DNA of 64,000 nucleotides, from the NCBI GenBank assembly GCA_002368155.1, contig AP018181.1, positions 310,001 through 374,000 of the forward strand, written 5' to 3'. How positions within the stretch are numbered: position 1 is the first letter of the stretch; each line of letters starts with the position of its first letter. The position numbers were made by a program, and so were the translations under genes. This stretch comes from Nostoc carneum NIES-2107. Its GTDB lineage: Bacteria; Cyanobacteriota; Cyanobacteriia; Cyanobacteriales; Nostocaceae. Below the pieces are notes generated by a model. The model made no database searches and was not told the origin of the DNA. It saw only the letters and a list, made by a program, of their open reading frames with translations. Of this stretch, positions 9,694 to 62,174 are shown piece by piece.

Positions 9694-12600
9694 TTATTTG
9701 GAAGTCCCTAAAGGTAATTTCACAATAAAAGTTGCACCCTGTCCCACACCTGGGCTTTGGGCGTGAATAGTTCCGCCGTGGAGTTCTACTAAGCTACGAG
9801 CGATCGCTAATCCTAAACCTAGTCCTTTCTTTACACCGTCTGCTTGCCGGAAAGTATCAAAGATATACGGTAAAAAATCGCTATCTATACCGCAGCCAGT
9901 ATCGCTGACTATAATATCGGCTTGATTTTCATCAGTTTGTAGACTAACTGCAATTCTGCCTCCTGTGGGTGTAAATTTAACAGCATTGGTCAGTAAATTT
10001 AAGATGATTTGTTGTAATCTTTCTGGGTCGCCTTGTACTATCGTTGGTGCTGCAGCTAGCTGGCAATCTAAGTGAATGTCTTTAGTTTCACATTGGCGGA
10101 CTGTGGCGATCGCCTGATCAATTACCCCTTGCAGTGCGACAGGCTCTAAATTCAGGTGAATTTTACCCGCAGTAATCCGCGAAATATCCAGCAAATCTTG
10201 CACTAATTTAGCTTGCAGAGTGGCATTGCGTTCGATACTTTCCAGCGCTTTCCAGAGCATAGCTGAACTTGGCGGGCTGCTACGCAGTAAGCGCGTCCAA
10301 CCGAGAATGGCGACTAGGGGGGTATTTAGTTCGTGAGAAACTGTTGATAGTATCTCATCCTTGCGGCGGTTAATTGTTCTTTCAGAGCGCAGTGCTTCTG
10401 AGCGCAGCTGTGCCATTTGCAGATAAGCATTAACGCGGGTAACCAGTTCGGTGGCAGAAAAAGGTTTAATTAGATAATCATCAGCCCCAGCTTGTAGCCC
10501 TTCAATTACCGATTCTTCGCCAGCGCGGGCAGAAAGCAGAATAATCGGTACTTCCTTGGTTCGTGCATCAGCCCGCAAAGCTTGCAATAACTCAAAGCCG
10601 TCTAATCCTGGCATCATCACATCACTGAGAACCAAATCCGGCACTCTCTGATTCACCGCTGCGATCGCCGCCGCCCCATCAGCTACCGCTTCCACCTCAA
10701 CATATTCGCTTAATATACTTGTGAGGTAATCGCGCATATCGGCGTTGTCATCGACGATGAGGACATGGGGTACTGGGGATTGGGGATTGGGGATTGGGGA
10801 TTGGGGATTGCTGATTCTCCTTGTCCCCTTGTCCCCTTGTCCCCTTGTCCCTAGTCCCCAGTCTCTAGTCCCTTCTTCCCCTATCCACCGTTCTGCCTCT
10901 TGCACATAAGGGGCTGCACCGAGTGCAGTTGATGCTAGGGTGCGTGTGGCTTGGATGCGGTCAGTTTGTAGGTGGGCTGTGCCTAGGGGAATGGTGACGG
11001 TGAAGCAGCTACCCACTCCAAGGCTGCTAGTTACTTCTACAGTGCCACCATGCAGTTTAATTAATTCTTGCACCAAAGCAAGACCAATCCCCGAACCTTC
11101 GTGAGTCCGGGCCTGTACGCCACGTATTTGGTAAAATCGCTCAAATAGACGGGGCAGTTCTTCAGGTGCAATGCCGGTGCCTGTATCTTTTACTTGTAGC
11201 TTTACATATTCATCAACAAGATGCAGCCTGACAGCGATTTCGCCTTCTAAAGTAAACTTAAAGGCGTTGGATAGCAAATTTAGCACAATTTTCTCCCACA
11301 TTTCCCGGTCTACGTATACAGGCTCGCTGATTGCTGGGCAATCGACAATTAGCCGTAGCCCAGCCCGTTCTATAGCGGAACGAAATACACTGGCTAACTC
11401 AGTGGTGAACCTTGCCAAGTCTGTTGGTTCATAGACGGCTTCCATGCGTCCGGCTTCGATGCGGGAGAAGTCAAGCAAGGTATTAACCAGTTTCAGCAGC
11501 CTCACGGCGTTTCGCTGGGCAAGTTCTAGGCGATCGCGTTGTGCTAGAGGTAGGGGATTGGCAGAATCGCTCAAGGCATCTTGCAAAGAAGCCAGTAGCA
11601 GCGTCAACGGTGTGCGGAATTCGTGGCTAATGTTGCTAAAGAAGAGAGTTTTAGCGCGATCGAGTTCTGCCAGTGTTTCGGCGCGTTGGCGTTCTTGTTC
11701 ACGGGCAGATTGCTCTCGAAATAGCTGAATTTCAGATTCACGCAAATTTGCTTCGGCGCGGGCACGTTCCACAGATGCCCAAGTGCGATCGGCAGTTTCT
11801 ATTGCTAGTTCTACTTCCAGATCAGTCCAGTCTCTAGGCGTGCTTTGAACTAGACTAAGCACGCCGACCGGCTTGCCGTTTTTAATGACGGGTACATTGA
11901 TATAGGAAATCACCTGTAACTGGATGCAAAGCTGCCTGAGATCGTCGTCCACCGTATCGGTTGTATGCACATCCTGAACCACAAAAGGATGACCTGCTTC
12001 TATCACCGCTTGCAAGATGGCAAAGCGCGAGAGCGGATACACTCCCGCAACGGTCGGCAAATCTTCACGGACAGCGTCACGCCGAATGATGGCATTGCCA
12101 TCCTCAATTTCGCAGTAGTAGCACCTGTCCGCGCCAAAGTAATTCATGGCAGTTCTGGTGACCGTTTGCTGAATGTCAACCGGATCGACAACTGGTCGCA
12201 GCGCATCGCTGAGTTTCAGCAAGAATGTCTGCTGCTCTTGGCTCTTGTGCAAGGACTCCTCGGCAAGCTTGCGCTCAGTAATGTCATAGGAAACAACAAC
12301 TACTGCATAAACTTCGCCGTCGGCAGAACGCAGTGGTGTTCCGCGGGAGATGAATGAGCGATCATGTGCCTCATGCTCTTGTTCAAACGGTTCACCAGCC
12401 AGCGCTCTACGGTAATTCACCTCATAATTTGCTGCTAATTCGGGACTCAGCACCTCGAAAATAGTTTTGCCAACAAAATCTGCGCTTGTAAATCCGGCGC
12501 TATGAAGTGCTTCGCCTTCGGCAAGTAGATAGTGCAGATTGCGGTCAACGACAAATACAGCCCCACCTGGTAGATTTTCCATCATCGCGCGGAAGTATGC

Positions 12601-13257
12601 TTCCGACTCCCGCGCCAACTCCTCGGCTCGTTGACGTTCCGCCGCCTCTACTTCTAGTTGGGCATTCTTCGCTAGCAATTCTTGGGTTTGTCGCTGATTC
12701 AGTAACAATGCCGCAGCAGCCAAGTCTGCCAAACTTGTCATTATCCGCACATCTTCACTATCAAAATGCCGCTGTTCATCATGGGATAAAATCCAGATAG
12801 TACCAAGAGCCTGGTTATCTGCAATTAGCGGTAACACTAACCCTTCTACAATGGGAGTGTTTGCTGCCTGTAAATCAGTAAAATACCGTTCTGGATAAGC
12901 ATAAAGTTGCGGAGTACCCCGATCCAAGCAGACACCACAGGGGCTAAAATTACGGGGTATAGTGCCGCTTACGTACTGTGTTAAGGCTCCTGCCAACACA
13001 TTCCAGCGAAAGATTTCTTCGCCATTTGATGTCATCTCTAGTAAACTCACCCCTGCTGTTCCCGCACTGCACAAATTAAGCGCTATGTCAACTAAATGCT
13101 GAAGCATAGTTTGGGGCTGATTTACCAACTGCCGCGCCAAAGCCTGCAACGCCCGATTTTCTGCGAGTAAGTTTGCCTCACGGGGATTGCGCCGAGACAA
13201 CTCCTCGGTAATGAGAATATATTCCAGTGTTACGGTTTCTCTTTGAGGTCGTTGCAT
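9694..13257 (-). CDS. Double-module hybrid kinase: GAF-PAS-GAF-HisKA-HATPase-REC-HisKA-HATPase
   Basis: The protein has 1187 residues, with no membrane segment. Order: GAF ~50-190, PAS ~222-335 (AVFVVDRNLHYLLAEGE), GAF ~345-500, first HisKA (NISHEFRTPLT, His545) and HATPase ~645-760, a low-complexity linker ~793-831, REC (VLIVDDNADMRD, Asp879 in LSDVMMPGLDG), then a second HisKA (TVSHELNTPLV, His975) and HATPase ~1075-1185 (LLTNAVKF, DTGCGI, GLGLGLAI). A receiver between two complete kinase modules suggests an internal relay (inference). The linker is encoded by an STRR heptamer tract (10767-10880) inserted in frame. ATG 13257 is the first in-frame start. It has the same layout as its upstream neighbour at 13619-16639, so the pair looks like an old tandem duplication. 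Confidence 0.88.
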   Translation of the reverse strand: MQRPQRETVTLEYILITEELSRRNPREANLLAENRALQALARQLVNQPQTMLQHLVDIALNLCSAGTAGVSLLEMTSNGEEIFRWNVLAGALTQYVSGTIPRNFSPCGVCLDRGTPQLYAYPERYFTDLQAANTPIVEGLVLPLIADNQALGTIWILSHDEQRHFDSEDVRIMTSLADLAAAALLLNQRQTQELLAKNAQLEVEAAERQRAEELARESEAYFRAMMENLPGGAVFVVDRNLHYLLAEGEALHSAGFTSADFVGKTIFEVLSPELAANYEVNYRRALAGEPFEQEHEAHDRSFISRGTPLRSADGEVYAVVVVSYDITERKLAEESLHKSQEQQTFLLKLSDALRPVVDPVDIQQTVTRTAMNYFGADRCYYCEIEDGNAIIRRDAVREDLPTVAGVYPLSRFAILQAVIEAGHPFVVQDVHTTDTVDDDLRQLCIQLQVISYINVPVIKNGKPVGVLSLVQSTPRDWTDLEVELAIETADRTWASVERARAEANLRESEIQLFREQSAREQERQRAETLAELDRAKTLFFSNISHEFRTPLTLLLASLQDALSDSANPLPLAQRDRLELAQRNAVRLLKLVNTLLDFSRIEAGRMEAVYEPTDLARFTTELASVFRSAIERAGLRLIVDCPAISEPVYVDREMWEKIVLNLLSNAFKFTLEGEIAVRLHLVDEYVKLQVKDTGTGIAPEELPRLFERFYQIRGVQARTHEGSGIGLALVQELIKLHGGTVEVTSSLGVGSCFTVTIPLGTAHLQTDRIQATRTLASTALGAAPYVQEAERWIGEEGTRDWGLGTRGQGDKGTRRISNPQSPIPNPQSPVPHVLIVDDNADMRDYLTSILSEYVEVEAVADGAAAIAAVNQRVPDLVLSDVMMPGLDGFELLQALRADARTKEVPIILLSARAGEESVIEGLQAGADDYLIKPFSATELVTRVNAYLQMAQLRSEALRSERTINRRKDEILSTVSHELNTPLVAILGWTRLLRSSPPSSAMLWKALESIERNATLQAKLVQDLLDISRITAGKIHLNLEPVALQGVIDQAIATVRQCETKDIHLDCQLAAAPTIVQGDPERLQQIILNLLTNAVKFTPTGGRIAVSLQTDENQADIIVSDTGCGIDSDFLPYIFDTFRQADGVKKGLGLGLAIARSLVELHGGTIHAQSPGVGQGATFIVKLPLGTSK
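10767..10880 (-). repeat. STRR heptamer tract inside a kinase gene, in frame
   Basis: Tandem GGGGATT/GGGTACT and CCTTGTCC units, like those between genes elsewhere in the window, are translated here as GTRDWGLGTRGQGDKG... then NPQSPIPNPQSP, between HATPase and REC. The reading frame is kept through the tract. Confidence 0.85.
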
Positions 13258-13618: not shown

Positions 13619-16600
13619 TTAAATTAATGGCAGCTTGACGGTAAACGTTGCGCCTCGCCCAATACCTGCACTTGCTGCCTCAATTGTACCGCCATGTAGT
13701 TCTACGAGTTGACGTGCGATCGCCAATCCCAACCCCAAACCCCCAGGTGTGTGCCGACTGGGAACCTCTGCTTGGGTAAAGCGATCAAAGACATGGGGGA
13801 GAAAATCTGCACTCATCCCAATACCATTGTCCCTCACCTGAATAATTGCCCAAGAGTCAACAGCATTAAGCCGAACTTCGATACTTCCACCTTTAGGCGT
13901 AAATTTAATGGCATTATGCAGTAATTTTGAGAAAACTTGCTGCAAACGAATTAAATCACCGCAAACGTAAATATCTTCTTGTAGAGACGCGATTAATCGC
14001 GTCTCTAATCGAGCATCGCTTAACATTGTCTGCATTACTTCCGCAAGAGTAGAGGTGAGATTGACTGGCTGGCGAGCCAAGTGAATTTTACCGGAGAGAA
14101 TAGTTGAGATATCCAGCAGATCCTCAATCAGCTTTGCCTGGTTGTTAGCATTACGCTCGATGGTATCTAAAGCGCGTAAAGTAGTAGCCTGCTCTAGCTG
14201 ATTTGAACGTAGTAAGCGAGTCCAACCCAGGATAGCAACTAAGGGTGTGTGCAGTTCGTGGGTAACGGTGGCTAAAAACTCATCTTTGAGGCGATTGGTA
14301 GATAATTCTTGTCGCAGATGTGCCATTTGTAAGTGAGAATCTACGCGCGCAACTAATTCCTGAGCAGAAAATGGCTTAATTAGATAATCGTCAGCACTAG
14401 CTTGCAAACCTTCAATTGCTGCTTCTTCTCCTGCACGAGCCGACAGCAGAATAATGGGTAAGCCTTTTGTCTTGGGATTGGTACGCAATGAACTCAGCAA
14501 TTGAAAACCGTCCATCTCTGGCATCATTACATCAGTCAGTACCAAATCTGGCAGTTGCAATGAGATAGCAGCTAGTGCTTCTGCTCCATTAGCAACAGCT
14601 TGTATCTGCCAGTGTTGCTGTAGTAGACGTTTGAGATAGTCGCGCATATCAGCGTTATCATCGACAAGGAGAATACGGGGGATTGGGGATTGGTGATTGG
14701 GTACTGGGGATTGGGCATTGAAGAAGTTTCTCTCCCCTGCTCCCTGCTCCCTGCTCCCTTGCTTTTCCCCAGTCCCTAGTCCCCAGTCCCTAGTCCCTTC
14801 CTCTAGCAGCCATTGCTGTGCTTCTTGAATGTAGGGAGTAGCATCAAGTGATGTTGATGGCAGTTTCCTTTCGGTACTAATTTGCTCAGATGGCAAGTGT
14901 GATGAGCCTGTGGGTAAGGTTACTGTAAATGTCGTTCCCTTACCAAAGACACTCTCCACCTTTACAGTGCCACCATGTAAGTGAACGAGTTCTTGCACCA
15001 AAGCTAAACCAATTCCCGATCCTTCGTGACTCCTGGCTTGCACCCCGCGTATACGGTGAAAGCGTTCAAAAATTTTGGGTAACTCTTCGCTGTTAATGCC
15101 TGTGCCTGTATCCCGTACTTTTAGCTCTACTTTGTCAGCAATTGGGTGTAATGAAACGGCAATTTCTCCAGTAAAGGTGAATTTAAAGGCATTGGAGATT
15201 AAGTTAAGCACTATTTTCTCCCACATTTCCCGGTCTACATACACAAGTTCGCTCAGGGGTGGGCAATCTACTATTAATTGCATTCCTGCTGTTTCAATCG
15301 CTGAACGGAAAACTGAGGCTAACTCGGCTGTAAATTGGGCTAAATTAGTAGGCTCATACATTGCCTGTATTCTACCGGCTTCAATTCGGGAGAAGTCAAG
15401 TAGAGTATTAACTAGTTTGTGCAATCTCATGGCGTTTCGCTGCACAATCGCCAGTTGTTCGCGCTGTTCCGGTTGGAGTGAACTCTGTGTTTGGGCGATT
15501 ACTTGCTCAAGTGGATTGAGCATCAACGTTAGCGGCGTGCGAAATTCATGGCTGATGTTGTTAAAGAAAGCTGTTTTAGCACGATCTAATTCTGCTAATG
15601 CTTCGGCTCGCTGACGTTCTTGCTCATAACTCTGAGCAGTAGCAATGGAACTGTCAACCTGCTGGGCAACCAATTCTAGGAATGTGCGATATTCAGAATC
15701 AAACTTCAGTCGGGGGCTAATTCCTGCAACCAGCAGACATTTAACTCTTTGTTTGTTACTTCCCAAGATAGGTAGAATGTACGCAGAATGAGGACTTTCT
15801 GGCCACGGCCCAACCGATAGCGCCCCGAAGCGATCGCCCACATCTGTAACAAGCTGTGGCTCGTGACTTTGTAGCACCTCAGCACAGCGCCAGCCAAGAA
15901 TATTCTCTTGCTCGGTGAGATTTATGGTTTTGGGTACGATACTATCAGCCGGAAGTTTGGTTGAGGCAACTAATTCTGCTTGAGAGCCTTGCTGATCAAC
16001 CCAATAGAACAGGGCAAAGGGAATATCGTAAGGGTTGAGCGTATCAGCGGCAGCAAGACAGGCTGATAGGGTTGTTTTTGCCCCACTTCCAGCCGTGGCT
16101 AACTGTCGCAGCATCGTCAAGCGCCGTCGGTTCAGTACTTGCTCGGTGGTTTCATTGGTTGCAGTACAAATTAACCCTCTGAACGTGCCTGTCTCATCCC
16201 GAATCTGGCTATAGCAGAACGTGAAATAAGTCTCCTCCAAATAGCCAGAGCGGAAGAGTTGATAAGGGAAATCTTCCGCATAGAAAGCCTCACCCGTATC
16301 TCTGATTCCACTAAACATCGGGTTCAGTTGGTCATCCCAAATTTCTGCCCAAATCTCGCGTATGGGTTGTGCCAGTGCTTTTGGGTGATTTGCTCCATAC
16401 ATCGGAATGAAGCCATCGTTATAAAGCTGGAGGTAGTCATCCCCCCAAAGAATGGTCTGGGGAAAGCGAGACACGAGAATGGTGCTGACTAGCGATCGCA
16501 GCGTTGGCGGCCAGTTCTCCACGGGGCCTAAGGGTGTGCTCGACCAGTCGTGCGATCGCATCAACTCACCCATCTCGCCACCACCTGCAAACACATCCAA

Positions 16601-16639
16601 GGCGGAAGCGACTTTCTTGCTTTCGCTTAAGCTGTCCAT
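13619..16639 (-). CDS. Double-module hybrid kinase: PAS-GAF-HisKA-HATPase-REC-HisKA-HATPase
   Basis: The protein has 1006 residues and is cytoplasmic. Order: PAS-like domain ~30-170 (SRFPQTILWGDDYLQLYNDGF), GAF ~185-335, first HisKA (NISHEFRTPLT, His364) with HATPase ~465-575 (NLISNAFKF, DTGTGI, GSGIGLAL), an STRR-encoded linker ~614-655, REC (LLVDDNADMRD, Asp703 in LTDVMMPEMDG), second HisKA (TVTHELHTPLV, His794) and HATPase ~895-1005 (LLHNAIKF, DNGIGM, GLGLGLAI). The start is ATG 16639. It shares order and many stretches (VNTLLDFSRIEAGR, LLSARAGEE) with the kinase 361 bases downstream. Residues ~879-886 (RLETRLIA) are encoded by a copy of the GACGCGATTAATCGCGTC palindrome, another in-frame repeat. 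No output domain is present. Confidence 0.88.
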   Translation of the reverse strand: MDSLSESKKVASALDVFAGGGEMGELMRSHDWSSTPLGPVENWPPTLRSLVSTILVSRFPQTILWGDDYLQLYNDGFIPMYGANHPKALAQPIREIWAEIWDDQLNPMFSGIRDTGEAFYAEDFPYQLFRSGYLEETYFTFCYSQIRDETGTFRGLICTATNETTEQVLNRRRLTMLRQLATAGSGAKTTLSACLAAADTLNPYDIPFALFYWVDQQGSQAELVASTKLPADSIVPKTINLTEQENILGWRCAEVLQSHEPQLVTDVGDRFGALSVGPWPESPHSAYILPILGSNKQRVKCLLVAGISPRLKFDSEYRTFLELVAQQVDSSIATAQSYEQERQRAEALAELDRAKTAFFNNISHEFRTPLTLMLNPLEQVIAQTQSSLQPEQREQLAIVQRNAMRLHKLVNTLLDFSRIEAGRIQAMYEPTNLAQFTAELASVFRSAIETAGMQLIVDCPPLSELVYVDREMWEKIVLNLISNAFKFTFTGEIAVSLHPIADKVELKVRDTGTGINSEELPKIFERFHRIRGVQARSHEGSGIGLALVQELVHLHGGTVKVESVFGKGTTFTVTLPTGSSHLPSEQISTERKLPSTSLDATPYIQEAQQWLLEEGTRDWGLGTGEKQGSREQGAGERNFFNAQSPVPNHQSPIPRILLVDDNADMRDYLKRLLQQHWQIQAVANGAEALAAISLQLPDLVLTDVMMPEMDGFQLLSSLRTNPKTKGLPIILLSARAGEEAAIEGLQASADDYLIKPFSAQELVARVDSHLQMAHLRQELSTNRLKDEFLATVTHELHTPLVAILGWTRLLRSNQLEQATTLRALDTIERNANNQAKLIEDLLDISTILSGKIHLARQPVNLTSTLAEVMQTMLSDARLETRLIASLQEDIYVCGDLIRLQQVFSKLLHNAIKFTPKGGSIEVRLNAVDSWAIIQVRDNGIGMSADFLPHVFDRFTQAEVPSRHTPGGLGLGLAIARQLVELHGGTIEAASAGIGRGATFTVKLPLI
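13983..14006. repeat. GACGCGATTAATCGCGTC palindrome inside coding sequence
   Basis: This is a perfect 24-base palindrome with core GACGCGATTAATCGCGTC. It is translated in frame within the second kinase module of the 1006-residue protein, just before the HATPase N box. The same core occurs between genes at 16771, 28191 and 45708. Confidence 0.85.
14677..14801 (-). repeat. STRR heptamer tract inside the second double-module kinase
   Basis: GGGGATTGGGGATTGG and CCCCAGTCCCTAGTCCCCAG units flank a CCCTGCTCCCTGCTCCC run. They are translated as EGTRDWGLGTGEKQGS...NAQSPVPNHQSP between HATPase and REC, the same junction as in the neighbouring kinase. The sequence differs from the neighbour's tract in length and units. 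Confidence 0.85.
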
Positions 16640-51955: not shown

Positions 51956-53503
51956 ATGGCTTTAGTGATTGCTGGAGAACGTAGTGGGGTAGGTAAGACA
52001 ACAGTTACACTGACGCTTTTAGCATCATTATGTCGTCGGGGTAGGGCAGTACAATCTTTTAAGGTCGGCCCGGACTATATTGATCCGATGTTTCATCAGC
52101 ATGTAACTGGTCGTGCTTGTCGGAATTTAGATCCAGTTTTGACTTCTGAAGCCTATATTCAGCAATGTTTTGCCCGTCACAGCCAAGATAGTGAATATGC
52201 TTTAGTAGAAGGCGTAATGGGGCTATTTGATGGGATTAAGGGGACTGGGGACTGGGGATTGGGGACTGGGGATGAGGGAGTAGAGGAGCAGGGGAGAAAT
52301 AGCCAATTACCAATTACCAATTACCAATTGCCCCATGCCCCATGCCCCATGCCCCATGCCCAATTCATAACCGATTTTGCCAGTACTGCACATATTGCAA
52401 GGCTGCTGAATTTACCTGTGGTGCTGGTAATAGATTGCAGTCGCTTATCGGGTTCTGTGGCTGCGATCGCTCATGGTTATTGCTCTTTTGATCCGAGAAT
52501 TAAAATAGCGGGTTTAATACTCAATCGCGTAGGCAGCGATCGCCATCTTTCTCTACTCAAAGACGCTCTAGAATCATTACAATTACCCATTCTTGGGGTA
52601 CTGCGTCGTCAAGATAATATCACCATTCCCGATCGCCATTTAGGTTTAGTACCCACAGCAGAACTCCCAGAATTAGATGCTGTCATCAATCGGCTTGCTG
52701 ATTTAGGCGATACTTGCTTTGACTGGGAAAGGTTATTGCCTATGTTGGGGACTGGGGACTGGGGATTGGGGACTGGGGACTGGGAACTGGGGACTGGGGA
52801 CAAGGAGAAAAATTTTACAGCAGTTTCTCCCTCATCCCCCTCATCCTCACTCAAGATTGCAGTAGCACGCGATCGCGCTTTTAATTTTTACTATCAAGAT
52901 AATCTTGATATATTGCAAGAGTTGGGTGCAGAACTGGTTTTTTGGAGTCCGTTAGCAGATTCTGAATTACCAAAAGATGTGCAGGGAATTTATTTTGGTG
53001 GCGGATTTCCAGAAGTTTTTGCCCAGCAACTAGCAGAAAATATTAGCGTTCGTCACACAGTTAAAAAAGCAATTCTAGAGGGAATGCCAACAATTGCTGA
53101 GTGTGGCGGATTAATGTATTTATGTGAGGAAATTATTGATTTTGATGGTGCATCCTGGCCAATGGTAGGTATTTTACCTACATCTACTCAAATGGGGAAA
53201 CGCTTAACCTTAGGGTATCGTCGTGGCTTAGCTTTACAAGATAGTCTATTAGTACCAGCAGGTAAAAATGTTTATGGGCATGAATTTCATCGTTCACATT
53301 TAATATCCACACCCAATCAACCTTTGTTTGAAACTTACCGTTACGATTGTGCGGAAAATATGGGATATGAAGGATGGAGCACACCTGTAAATGTTTACGC
53401 TTCTTATGTCCATTTGCACTGGGGAGCAAGTCTAGAAATACCGCAGCGTTTTATTCAGAAATGTTGGGAATTTAAAAATTACTATAACAAGGCTAAAGTC
53501 TGA
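51956..53503 (+). CDS. cobB: Cobyrinate a,c-diamide synthase with two in-frame repeat inserts
   Basis: The protein has 515 residues; the usual length is ~450-470. It amidates the a and c side chains of cobyrinate with ATP and glutamine (CobB/CbiA). The ATPase domain opens GERSGVGKTTVTLTLLASL and has FKVGPDYIDPMFH and VEGVMGLFDG. The class I glutamine amidotransferase domain has IYFGGGFPEVFA and the catalytic Cys in TIAECGGLMYL, and the end shows HEFHRSHL. Two stretches have no counterpart in the family: ~94-138 (GTGDWGLGTGDEG...LPHAPCPMPHAQ), just after the FDG motif, and ~264-300 (GTGDWGLGTGDWELGTGDK...), between the two domains. Both come from STRR DNA, without a stop or frameshift. The start is ATG 51956. 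Confidence 0.92.
   Translation: MALVIAGERSGVGKTTVTLTLLASLCRRGRAVQSFKVGPDYIDPMFHQHVTGRACRNLDPVLTSEAYIQQCFARHSQDSEYALVEGVMGLFDGIKGTGDWGLGTGDEGVEEQGRNSQLPITNYQLPHAPCPMPHAQFITDFASTAHIARLLNLPVVLVIDCSRLSGSVAAIAHGYCSFDPRIKIAGLILNRVGSDRHLSLLKDALESLQLPILGVLRRQDNITIPDRHLGLVPTAELPELDAVINRLADLGDTCFDWERLLPMLGTGDWGLGTGDWELGTGDKEKNFTAVSPSSPSSSLKIAVARDRAFNFYYQDNLDILQELGAELVFWSPLADSELPKDVQGIYFGGGFPEVFAQQLAENISVRHTVKKAILEGMPTIAECGGLMYLCEEIIDFDGASWPMVGILPTSTQMGKRLTLGYRRGLALQDSLLVPAGKNVYGHEFHRSHLISTPNQPLFETYRYDCAENMGYEGWSTPVNVYASYVHLHWGASLEIPQRFIQKCWEFKNYYNKAKV
52237..52365 (+). repeat. STRR insert 1 inside cobB, in frame
   Basis: GGGGACTGGGGACTGGGGAT units, then AATTACCAATTACCAATT and CCCCATGCCCCATGCCCCAT tandems. 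It is a whole intergenic-style STRR array read through as protein near residues 94-138. Confidence 0.88.
52746..52853 (+). repeat. STRR insert 2 inside cobB, in frame
   Basis: GGGGACTGGGGACTGGGGAT units followed by CTCCCTCATCCCCCTCATCC, read as protein near residues 264-300, at the junction of the ATPase and amidotransferase domains. Confidence 0.88.
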
Positions 53504-61241: not shown

Positions 61242-62174
61242 ATGGCTAGAGCAATCGAGCGAATTGATCGGGATATAGCATTGCTGAAAGAAGCGATCGC
61301 TGCGATCGCCACAGAACTGCAAAAATCTTATGCTATTTACTTAGACCTGTTAGGGCAAGCTGTTCGTCAGCAGTTGATTCTGGCAACTTATCACCTGTGT
61401 ACCCAGGGTTATCCCGAAAAGTTCTTGAGCTTGTCATTGAATCAACGGCACAATTTGCAACAAGCCATCCGCAAATTAGGTAAGCAAGCTGGTGAGCAAT
61501 TACTGGCTATTGTTAGTAGTGAAGAAAATCAGAATGCGGTAGCGGAAGATGAGGGGGATGAGGTAGATGATGGGGATGAGGTAGATGAGGGGGATGAAGG
61601 GGATGAGGGGGATGAAGGGGATGAGGGGGATGATGTAGATGAGGAGGATGAGGTAGATAAGATTGATGCGGGTGGTCATCGCAATGCAAAATCCCAAATC
61701 TCTACTTTGAAATTGACCGATCCTTCTAATCCGATGCAGTTACTAGTATGGCAACAAAGCCTAGAGAAGCTAACTCAACATACACTCAAAAAAGTTTCTC
61801 ATGATGCTAATGCTGCCCTGCAAAAAGTCAATATTTTACCTAACAAAATACCTGAACCGATTTTAGAAGTAGCTGCGGCGGCATCAGAAGCATCTGCCGA
61901 AGTTATGCCTGGGCCACCTAACATATTAAACGTGGTCATTGAAATCCCCAATGAGCAGGATGCAGAAGAATCTAGCCTGACAAAAGTTATGGCGATTAAC
62001 CTGCGACTAGGAGAAATTGAATTTGCTGATGCTAAACTCTCATCTGCACGCCGACAAATTCGCAACACCTTAATTCAGCTAAAGAAACTAGGGCAAGATT
62101 ATCAAAAGAAGCAACGAGAACGCTCAATTGCCGAAGCAGAAGCCGCATGGCGTGCAATTTGGGATGATGATTAG
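61242..62174 (+). CDS. Uncharacterised helical protein with a repeat-encoded acidic tract
   Basis: The protein has 310 residues. The N-terminus (~1-95) is helical (RIDRDIALLKEAIAAIATELQKSYAIYLDLLGQAVRQQL). At ~102-142 an acidic run reads DEGDEVDDGDEVDEGDEGDEG, coded by GGGGATGAG/GATGAGGTA tandems (61546-61665). A middle region follows with PMQLLVWQQSLEKLTQHTLKKVSHDANAALQK. The C-terminal ~245-310 is a coiled-coil-like part (RLGEIEFADAKLSSARRQIRNTLIQLKKLGQDYQKKQRERSIAEAEAAWRAIWDDD). I recognise no named family. It lies 120 bases before recG on the same strand, so some link to it is possible. The start is ATG 61242. Confidence 0.72.
   Translation: MARAIERIDRDIALLKEAIAAIATELQKSYAIYLDLLGQAVRQQLILATYHLCTQGYPEKFLSLSLNQRHNLQQAIRKLGKQAGEQLLAIVSSEENQNAVAEDEGDEVDDGDEVDEGDEGDEGDEGDEGDDVDEEDEVDKIDAGGHRNAKSQISTLKLTDPSNPMQLLVWQQSLEKLTQHTLKKVSHDANAALQKVNILPNKIPEPILEVAAAASEASAEVMPGPPNILNVVIEIPNEQDAEESSLTKVMAINLRLGEIEFADAKLSSARRQIRNTLIQLKKLGQDYQKKQRERSIAEAEAAWRAIWDDD
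61546..61665 (+). repeat. GATGAGGGG-type tandem inside a coding region
   Basis: Units of GATGAGGGGGATGAGGTA and GATGAAGGGGATGAGGGG run in frame for about 120 bases and encode alternating Asp/Glu/Gly/Val. The same unit lies between genes at 24624-24657. Confidence 0.8.

Follow-up and report, generated by a model that had tools for sequence, protein, structure and literature searches.

Heptamer repeats of the short tandemly repeated repetitive (STRR) type are not known from outside heterocystous cyanobacteria. They are said to occur in filamentous cyanobacteria (Mazel 1990; Vioque 1997), and reportedly lie inside the RNase P RNA gene as well (Vioque 1997). Hairpins of STRRs are described in the accessible part of one report (PMC2670836). 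In Nostoc sp. PCC 7120, quadruplex-forming repeats of the unit GGGGA(C/T)T are 68% intergenic, and their intragenic fraction is larger than in Xanthomonas, from which convergent repeat pairs are known (Rehm 2015, excerpts of PMC4692102). In Rickettsia, palindromic elements (RPEs) of about 150 bp, each with a family-specific ORF peptide of its own, sit in frame within genes that have no relation to one another and are translated together with the host protein (Ogata 2000, 2002, according to the available part of PMC10969869).

Here we analyse a cobB gene in the window, i.e. the whole stretch of 64,000 nucleotides under study. The gene contains two in-frame, stop-free segments of intergenic-type heptamer arrays, encoding the peptides KGTGDWGLGTGDEGVEEQGRNSQLPITNYQLPHAPCPMPHAQFITD and LGTGDWGLGTGDWELGTGDKEKNFTAVSPSSPSSS (Table 1). 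Site 1 directly follows the EGVMGLFDG motif and site 2 lies at the junction of the ATPase and amidotransferase domains. A sequence-only reading of the same DNA had claimed both the segments and their positions; the former are borne out by the ORF, Tandem Repeats Finder and a genome survey, the latter by alignment and structural model alike. It had further taken both segments for whole arrays, which holds for the composite of site 1 and fails for site 2, where only the G-rich part is heptameric and the C-rich tail has a 9-base rhythm. We conclude that the two segments are very probably copies of STRR heptamer repeats which inserted into two loops and lengthen the protein there by unstructured, translated segments, in-frame and stop-free copies surviving where the loop is tolerant. 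The rhythm of the C-rich tail recurs in a 9-base GATGAGGGG array at 61547-61658 of the window.

Table 1. Features of the cobB locus, in window coordinates.
Feature	Position	Strand	Basis
cobB, cobyrinic acid a,c-diamide synthase, 515 aa	51956..53503	+	NF002204; Pfam CbiA, GATase_3
Site 1, residues 95-140, between FDG and STAHIARLL helix	52238..52375	+	sequence, alignment
GGGGACT/GGGGATT array, G-rich arm of the site-1 composite	52240..52279	+	Tandem Repeats Finder (GGGGACT, period 7, at 52240-52272; a period-14 row reaches 52279), genome survey
AATTACC (CCAATTA) array, peptide SQLPITNYQL	52303..52329	+	Tandem Repeats Finder, genome survey
CCCCATG (TGCCCCA) array, C-rich arm, peptide LPHAPCPMPHAQ	52329..52361	+	Tandem Repeats Finder, genome survey
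Site 2, W257 to start of amidotransferase domain, interdomain linker	52724..52855	+	sequence, alignment, model
TGGGGAC array, 8.0 copies, peptide LGTGDWGLGTGDWELGTGDK	52746..52801	+	Tandem Repeats Finder, genome survey
C-rich tail of site 2, CCCTCATCC rhythm, 9-base	52826..52852	+	read from sequence

The ORF is open over its entire length, and the encoded protein scores 582 bits against the NCBIfam CobB profile (NF002204; cut-off 254, profile positions 2-420 of 420). With both Pfam domains present it belongs to the CobB/CbiA family, and the conserved CobB motifs are retained despite both inserts, FDG (residues 91-93) being invariant in the 67 sequences aligned. A search of the genome with the window CobB yielded 148 matches, of which those beyond cobB nearly all arise via the repeat segments. 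One full-length cobB copy is present in the genome; a family search gave three further, weak CobB matches far below the cut-off, which we take to be relatives such as CobQ. Outside both sites, dN/dS values against six relatives are 0.199, 0.199, 0.215, 0.137, 0.123 and 0.097, i.e. the rest of the gene is under purifying selection. The single copy, the dN/dS range of 0.10-0.22 and the frame kept throughout the loci compared below disfavour a silent pseudogene accompanied by a second cobB, an objection which the sequence-only reading had raised against itself. CobB exceeds the cut-off in seven of eight genomes of the genus. In G006, a genome of the same genus whose assembly is given as 100% complete, CobB matches are weak and below the cut-off. 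The nearest named record, in a search with the C-terminal part of CobB, is Nostoc linckia FACHB-104.

In the predicted structure of the window CobB (67 aligned sequences, mean pLDDT 86.1, pTM 0.84), runs of at least three residues with pLDDT below 50 are confined to residues 98-136, flanked by a strand and a helix in the ATPase domain, and 270-294, between the two domains, both within the inserts; low pLDDT is to be expected of insertions with poor coverage in the alignment. A sequence search for solved CobB/CbiA structures found none and returned two distant amidotransferases, and the 50 matches listed from a fold search were glutamine amidotransferases and CTP synthases, with no CobB/CbiA among them.

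The repeat units of cobB also form arrays elsewhere in the window. In a sample of 1.664 Mb of the genome, strands pooled, arrays of ACTGGGG number 46, of AATCCCC 41, of AATTACC 36 and of ATGCCCC 17, and the units of cobB are among the five commonest of 289 period-7 arrays, which makes them multi-copy in the manner of STRRs. Where neighbouring heptamer arrays in this sample lie at most 60 bp apart, a G-rich array is followed by a C-rich one in 50 of 81 pairs and the reverse order occurs in none of the 81, the other 31 pairs consisting of two arrays of like kind or including one of mixed composition. Site 1 is such a G-rich-then-C-rich composite. As the sequence-only reading had proposed, and translation confirms, a heptamer array encodes one and the same 7-residue cycle in all frames. 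A perfect array is therefore either open or closed on a given strand: those of GGGGACT and CCCCATG can be read through both ways, that of AATTACC solely in the direction it has in cobB.

Composites like that of the window occur, with different unit numbers, at site 1 of three genomes of the same genus (G003, G002 and G007), the units of the G-rich arm having diverged in G003, and two more (G005 and G001) have a TCATTTG-type composite there. This sharing, together with the conserved frame, disfavours an assembly or sequencing error. In a number of other cyanobacteria the site-1 loop comprises about five residues (SGEDD, TGKDD, TGIDD). Loops of at most seven residues occur at site 1 in 12 of 23 loci outside the family vs 6 of 122 distinct proteins of the rest, the former share being if anything too low because part of the 23 were chosen for long spans. 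At site 2 of G002 (L013), a unit of about 40 bp with CGGGGCCCCC occurs three times inside a heptamer array, with the frame kept.

Within the family, a CobB match at E of at most 1e-60 is present in 144 of 145 genomes, 143 being over the cut-off. The alignment of 144 distinct full-length proteins, from 168 full-length loci, was used to locate length excess, defined here as the residues above the minimum between conserved columns, ends outside these columns being uncounted. Hereof 52.6% falls at reference residues 94-139 (site 1) and 41.6% at residues 271-293 (site 2), together 94%. Length also varies, though much more rarely, at a third site close to the C-terminus (residues 476-479), which reaches up to 35 residues and holds 3.6% of the excess. 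Both sites could be read in 149 distinct loci, among them that of the window; in every one the frame is kept and stops are absent, across 41 site-1 and 39 site-2 lengths. These sets of 144 and 149 lean to long inserts, some regions having been picked for long or cut CobB spans. A second set was thus built from 80 loci found with the C-terminal part of CobB alone, unselected for length, of which five are cut by contig ends (L043, L044, L054, L075, L080) and 75 are readable at both sites; some genomes are in both this set and the one with G handles, identical proteins being counted once. Here 49.5% of the excess lies at site 1 and 42.2% at residues 271-294 (together 92%), with 4.1% each at 295-297 and 477-479, and frame and freedom from stops are kept in 75 of 75.

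In the window's family, and in some other cyanobacteria as well, these two loops are occupied by several families of repeats. Of the 144 genes, 19 have a period-7 run of at least 14 matches at site 1, 16 have one at site 2 and 1 has one in the rest of the gene (about 1.28 kb, a length taken from one gene). The window's own runs amount to 26 at site 1, which counts, and 13 at site 2, just under the cut. Runs of period 8 and period 9 occur at site 2 in 11 and 13 genes and at site 1 in 3 and 4, respectively; hence, not all repeats at the sites are heptamers.

The inserts often change between closely similar genes. Among 399 pairs with a core identity of at least 93%, pairs sharing members, the peptides are unrelated (string similarity below 0.4) in 242 at site 1 and in 76 at site 2; the set found with the C-terminal part gives 197 and 58 of 300. 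L063 and L068, with 98.8% core identity, carry SSLVNSHLSFAKNKELMTD and GHGQEKQKSTD, respectively, at site 1, and L094 and L132 (99.3%) differ at site 2. The peptides are thus not ancient and conserved, a condition under which the sequence-only reading would have fallen. On a quick tree of the 144 sequences built without both sites, in which 60 of 141 inner branches are open, site 1 would need at least 51 changes and site 2 at least 36, by labels which we set by pattern and which include a mixed class 'other' and a class 'short' defined by length. Inserts from three other genomes, each searched in its own genome, all proved to be dispersed repeats, with 54 (L184), 48 (L150) and 25 (L188) matches, 40 candidates being scored; the counts include the insert itself and are of pieces of the query. 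Two insert parts match separately in L150 and L188, and the L184 query held about 90 bases of the neighbouring gene, one of its matches being a second copy in the same gene. To look for a recombination tract around site 1, we compared pairs of at most 12% nucleotide divergence: over 30 nt to each side of the site, 482 switched pairs diverge by 0.104 and 0.112 and 127 kept pairs by 0.064 and 0.091, the means being 0.084 and 0.075. The local rise is slight and the pairs are not independent, so that it speaks neither for nor against such a tract. We tentatively consider it possible that the cobB loops are exchange sites, at which in-frame repeat cassettes are swapped for unrelated families between near-identical genes, outpacing the flanking gene, either through gene conversion over short tracts or as mobile heptamer hairpins are gained and lost. 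If so, such loops would be natural recorders of the repeats active in each lineage.

The sequence-only reading had left the choice between tolerance and selection at linkers. Selected linkers, or RNA hairpin or G-quadruplex elements that slow translation between the domains, appear unlikely to account for the inserts, since site 1 ranges from 5 to 70 residues (144 distinct genes), the repeat family is often changed between close relatives and in a number of relatives the loops are short and free of G-runs. The folding data are divided: the predicted RNA of site 1 is a strong hairpin in which the C-rich arm pairs with the G-rich arm (-54.4 kcal/mol, z = -2.19; matched or bettered by 6 of 200 shuffles), whereas the RNA of the window's site 2, located at the domain boundary, has no better a fold than its shuffles do (z = 0.26). 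As DNA, neither site's hairpin is supported (z = -0.32 and 0.97). By sequence, the G-rich arrays of both sites each have at least four G-tracts on one strand and would qualify as quadruplex repeats, and repeats of the GGGGA(C/T)T type form G-quadruplexes in vitro, as stated in the available part of PMC4692102. Tolerance is better supported than selection because neither sequence nor length is constant at the sites and because the sites are unstructured in the model. Counter to it are the recurrence of site-1 peptides (GHGQEKQKSTD in 5 of 144 rows, and five others among those listed twice each) and the similar short length, of at most 31 residues, of 69 of 144 site-2 segments.

Of the 357 heptamer-type arrays in the 1.664 Mb, 269 lie between called genes, 59 overlap a gene edge, 8 lie inside near a gene end, 20 are internal, flanked on either side by coding signal, and 1 is internal and weak, the gene calls being codon-based, not an annotation. 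The 20 internal in-frame arrays belong to 13 of 1171 called genes (about 1%), and three of these 13 genes fall in the 64 kb window. In one of the 13 genes the internal array, of period 21 (AEAKKAIDEAKTAIV), is probably an ordinary protein repeat and is set apart from STRR. For 10 of the other 12 genes, scanned with Pfam, the array is located between or just after domains in five (a two-part glycosyltransferase, a chloride channel with Usp, two histidine kinases of the window and a cysteinyl-tRNA synthetase), within the ATPase domain of a PAS histidine kinase in one, and is unplaced by the listing in four (a U32 peptidase, a DUF2157-like protein, an SNF2 helicase and a peptide synthetase). Arrays in other genes are thus not always at linkers, which counts against survival in tolerant loops. 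The two window genes are hybrid histidine kinases on the minus strand (9694-13257 and 13619-16639) with in-frame heptamer arrays at 10774-10816 and 14678-14798, both between the ATPase and receiver domains. In the cysteinyl-tRNA synthetase (CysS; G000 C1:7219700-7221148, L300), GTGDWGLGTGE is encoded in frame between the catalytic and DALR domains. Cysteinyl-tRNA synthetase is in general indispensable, and this CysS is the sole full-length copy over the cut-off in the genome; we therefore argue that such arrays are read through.

This survey also bears on the idea that the cobB loops are specific targets of a mechanism that places repeats preferentially, as opposed to selection filtering random insertions. 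Different families occupy the same codons, and among the 13 genes cobB alone has internal arrays separated by more than 100 nt; nevertheless, we deem targeting improbable, as similar arrays occur in other genes, half of those scanned at domain borders, and as the predominance of arrays between genes matches the prediction of filtering. That the inserts are removed or skipped after transcription, by ribosome bypassing or another hairpin removal, so that the enzyme lacks them, is extremely improbable in spite of the paired arms of the composite hairpin, because a skipped insert needs neither frame nor freedom from stops, and both are kept at each of the 149 loci, on which ground bypassing is rejected.

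Returning to in-frame survival of repeat copies in tolerant loops, we envisage that STRRs, like other small dispersed repeats, proliferate throughout these genomes with changing numbers of units and that copies which break a gene would be purged. Survival in cobB would then require a length that is a multiple of three, a stop-free sense strand and a place that the fold tolerates, i.e. the loop after FDG or the linker between the two domains. Unit number would change by slippage, and replacement of a cassette by another family could proceed by fresh insertion with loss or by short-tract exchange between strains. Because the frame is conserved, the insert peptides are presumably retained in the mature enzyme; the inserts are probably near neutral, and both loops would be situated on the protein surface. 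Since the motif which the loop after FDG adjoins is among the most conserved, activity could be altered by some of the inserts.

The two loops represent natural insertion sites in an otherwise conserved enzyme of the vitamin B12 pathway, and the 144 distinct versions, many with different foreign peptides at these two positions, allow a comparison of how small repeats enter such an enzyme. Two questions thereby become testable: the means by which heptamer repeats lacking a known mobility gene spread and displace one another, and the extent to which an enzyme accepts arbitrary sequence next to a conserved motif. For annotation the loops carry a warning: contigs break at such loops, cobB being cut by contig ends at or near site 1 in G004 and site 2 in G083, G126, G052, G075 and G131, and peptides like GTGDWGLGTGD can mark translated repeats instead of domains.

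In the literature searched, coverage of which is partial and thus no proof of absence, we found no description of in-frame repeats in cobB. The kind as such is already known from intragenic GGGGA(C/T)T repeats and from Rickettsia palindromic elements. Like STRRs, the cobB arrays consist of 7-base units able to form hairpins; they differ in being inside a protein gene, in frame, in two loops where other species have different repeats. With the quadruplex repeats of Nostoc sp. PCC 7120 they share an identical unit, GGGGA(C/T)T, whereas the accessible part of PMC4692102 describes neither a gene with two sites nor an exchange of repeat families at one loop. RPEs are likewise inserted in frame, and the two are alike in working; however, the STRRs in cobB are tandem heptamers of variable unit number, of which any frame of an open strand is readable, and hence are not members of the RPEs. 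Compared with these systems, the two-site turnover of many repeat families within one enzyme looks like the novel element of cobB.
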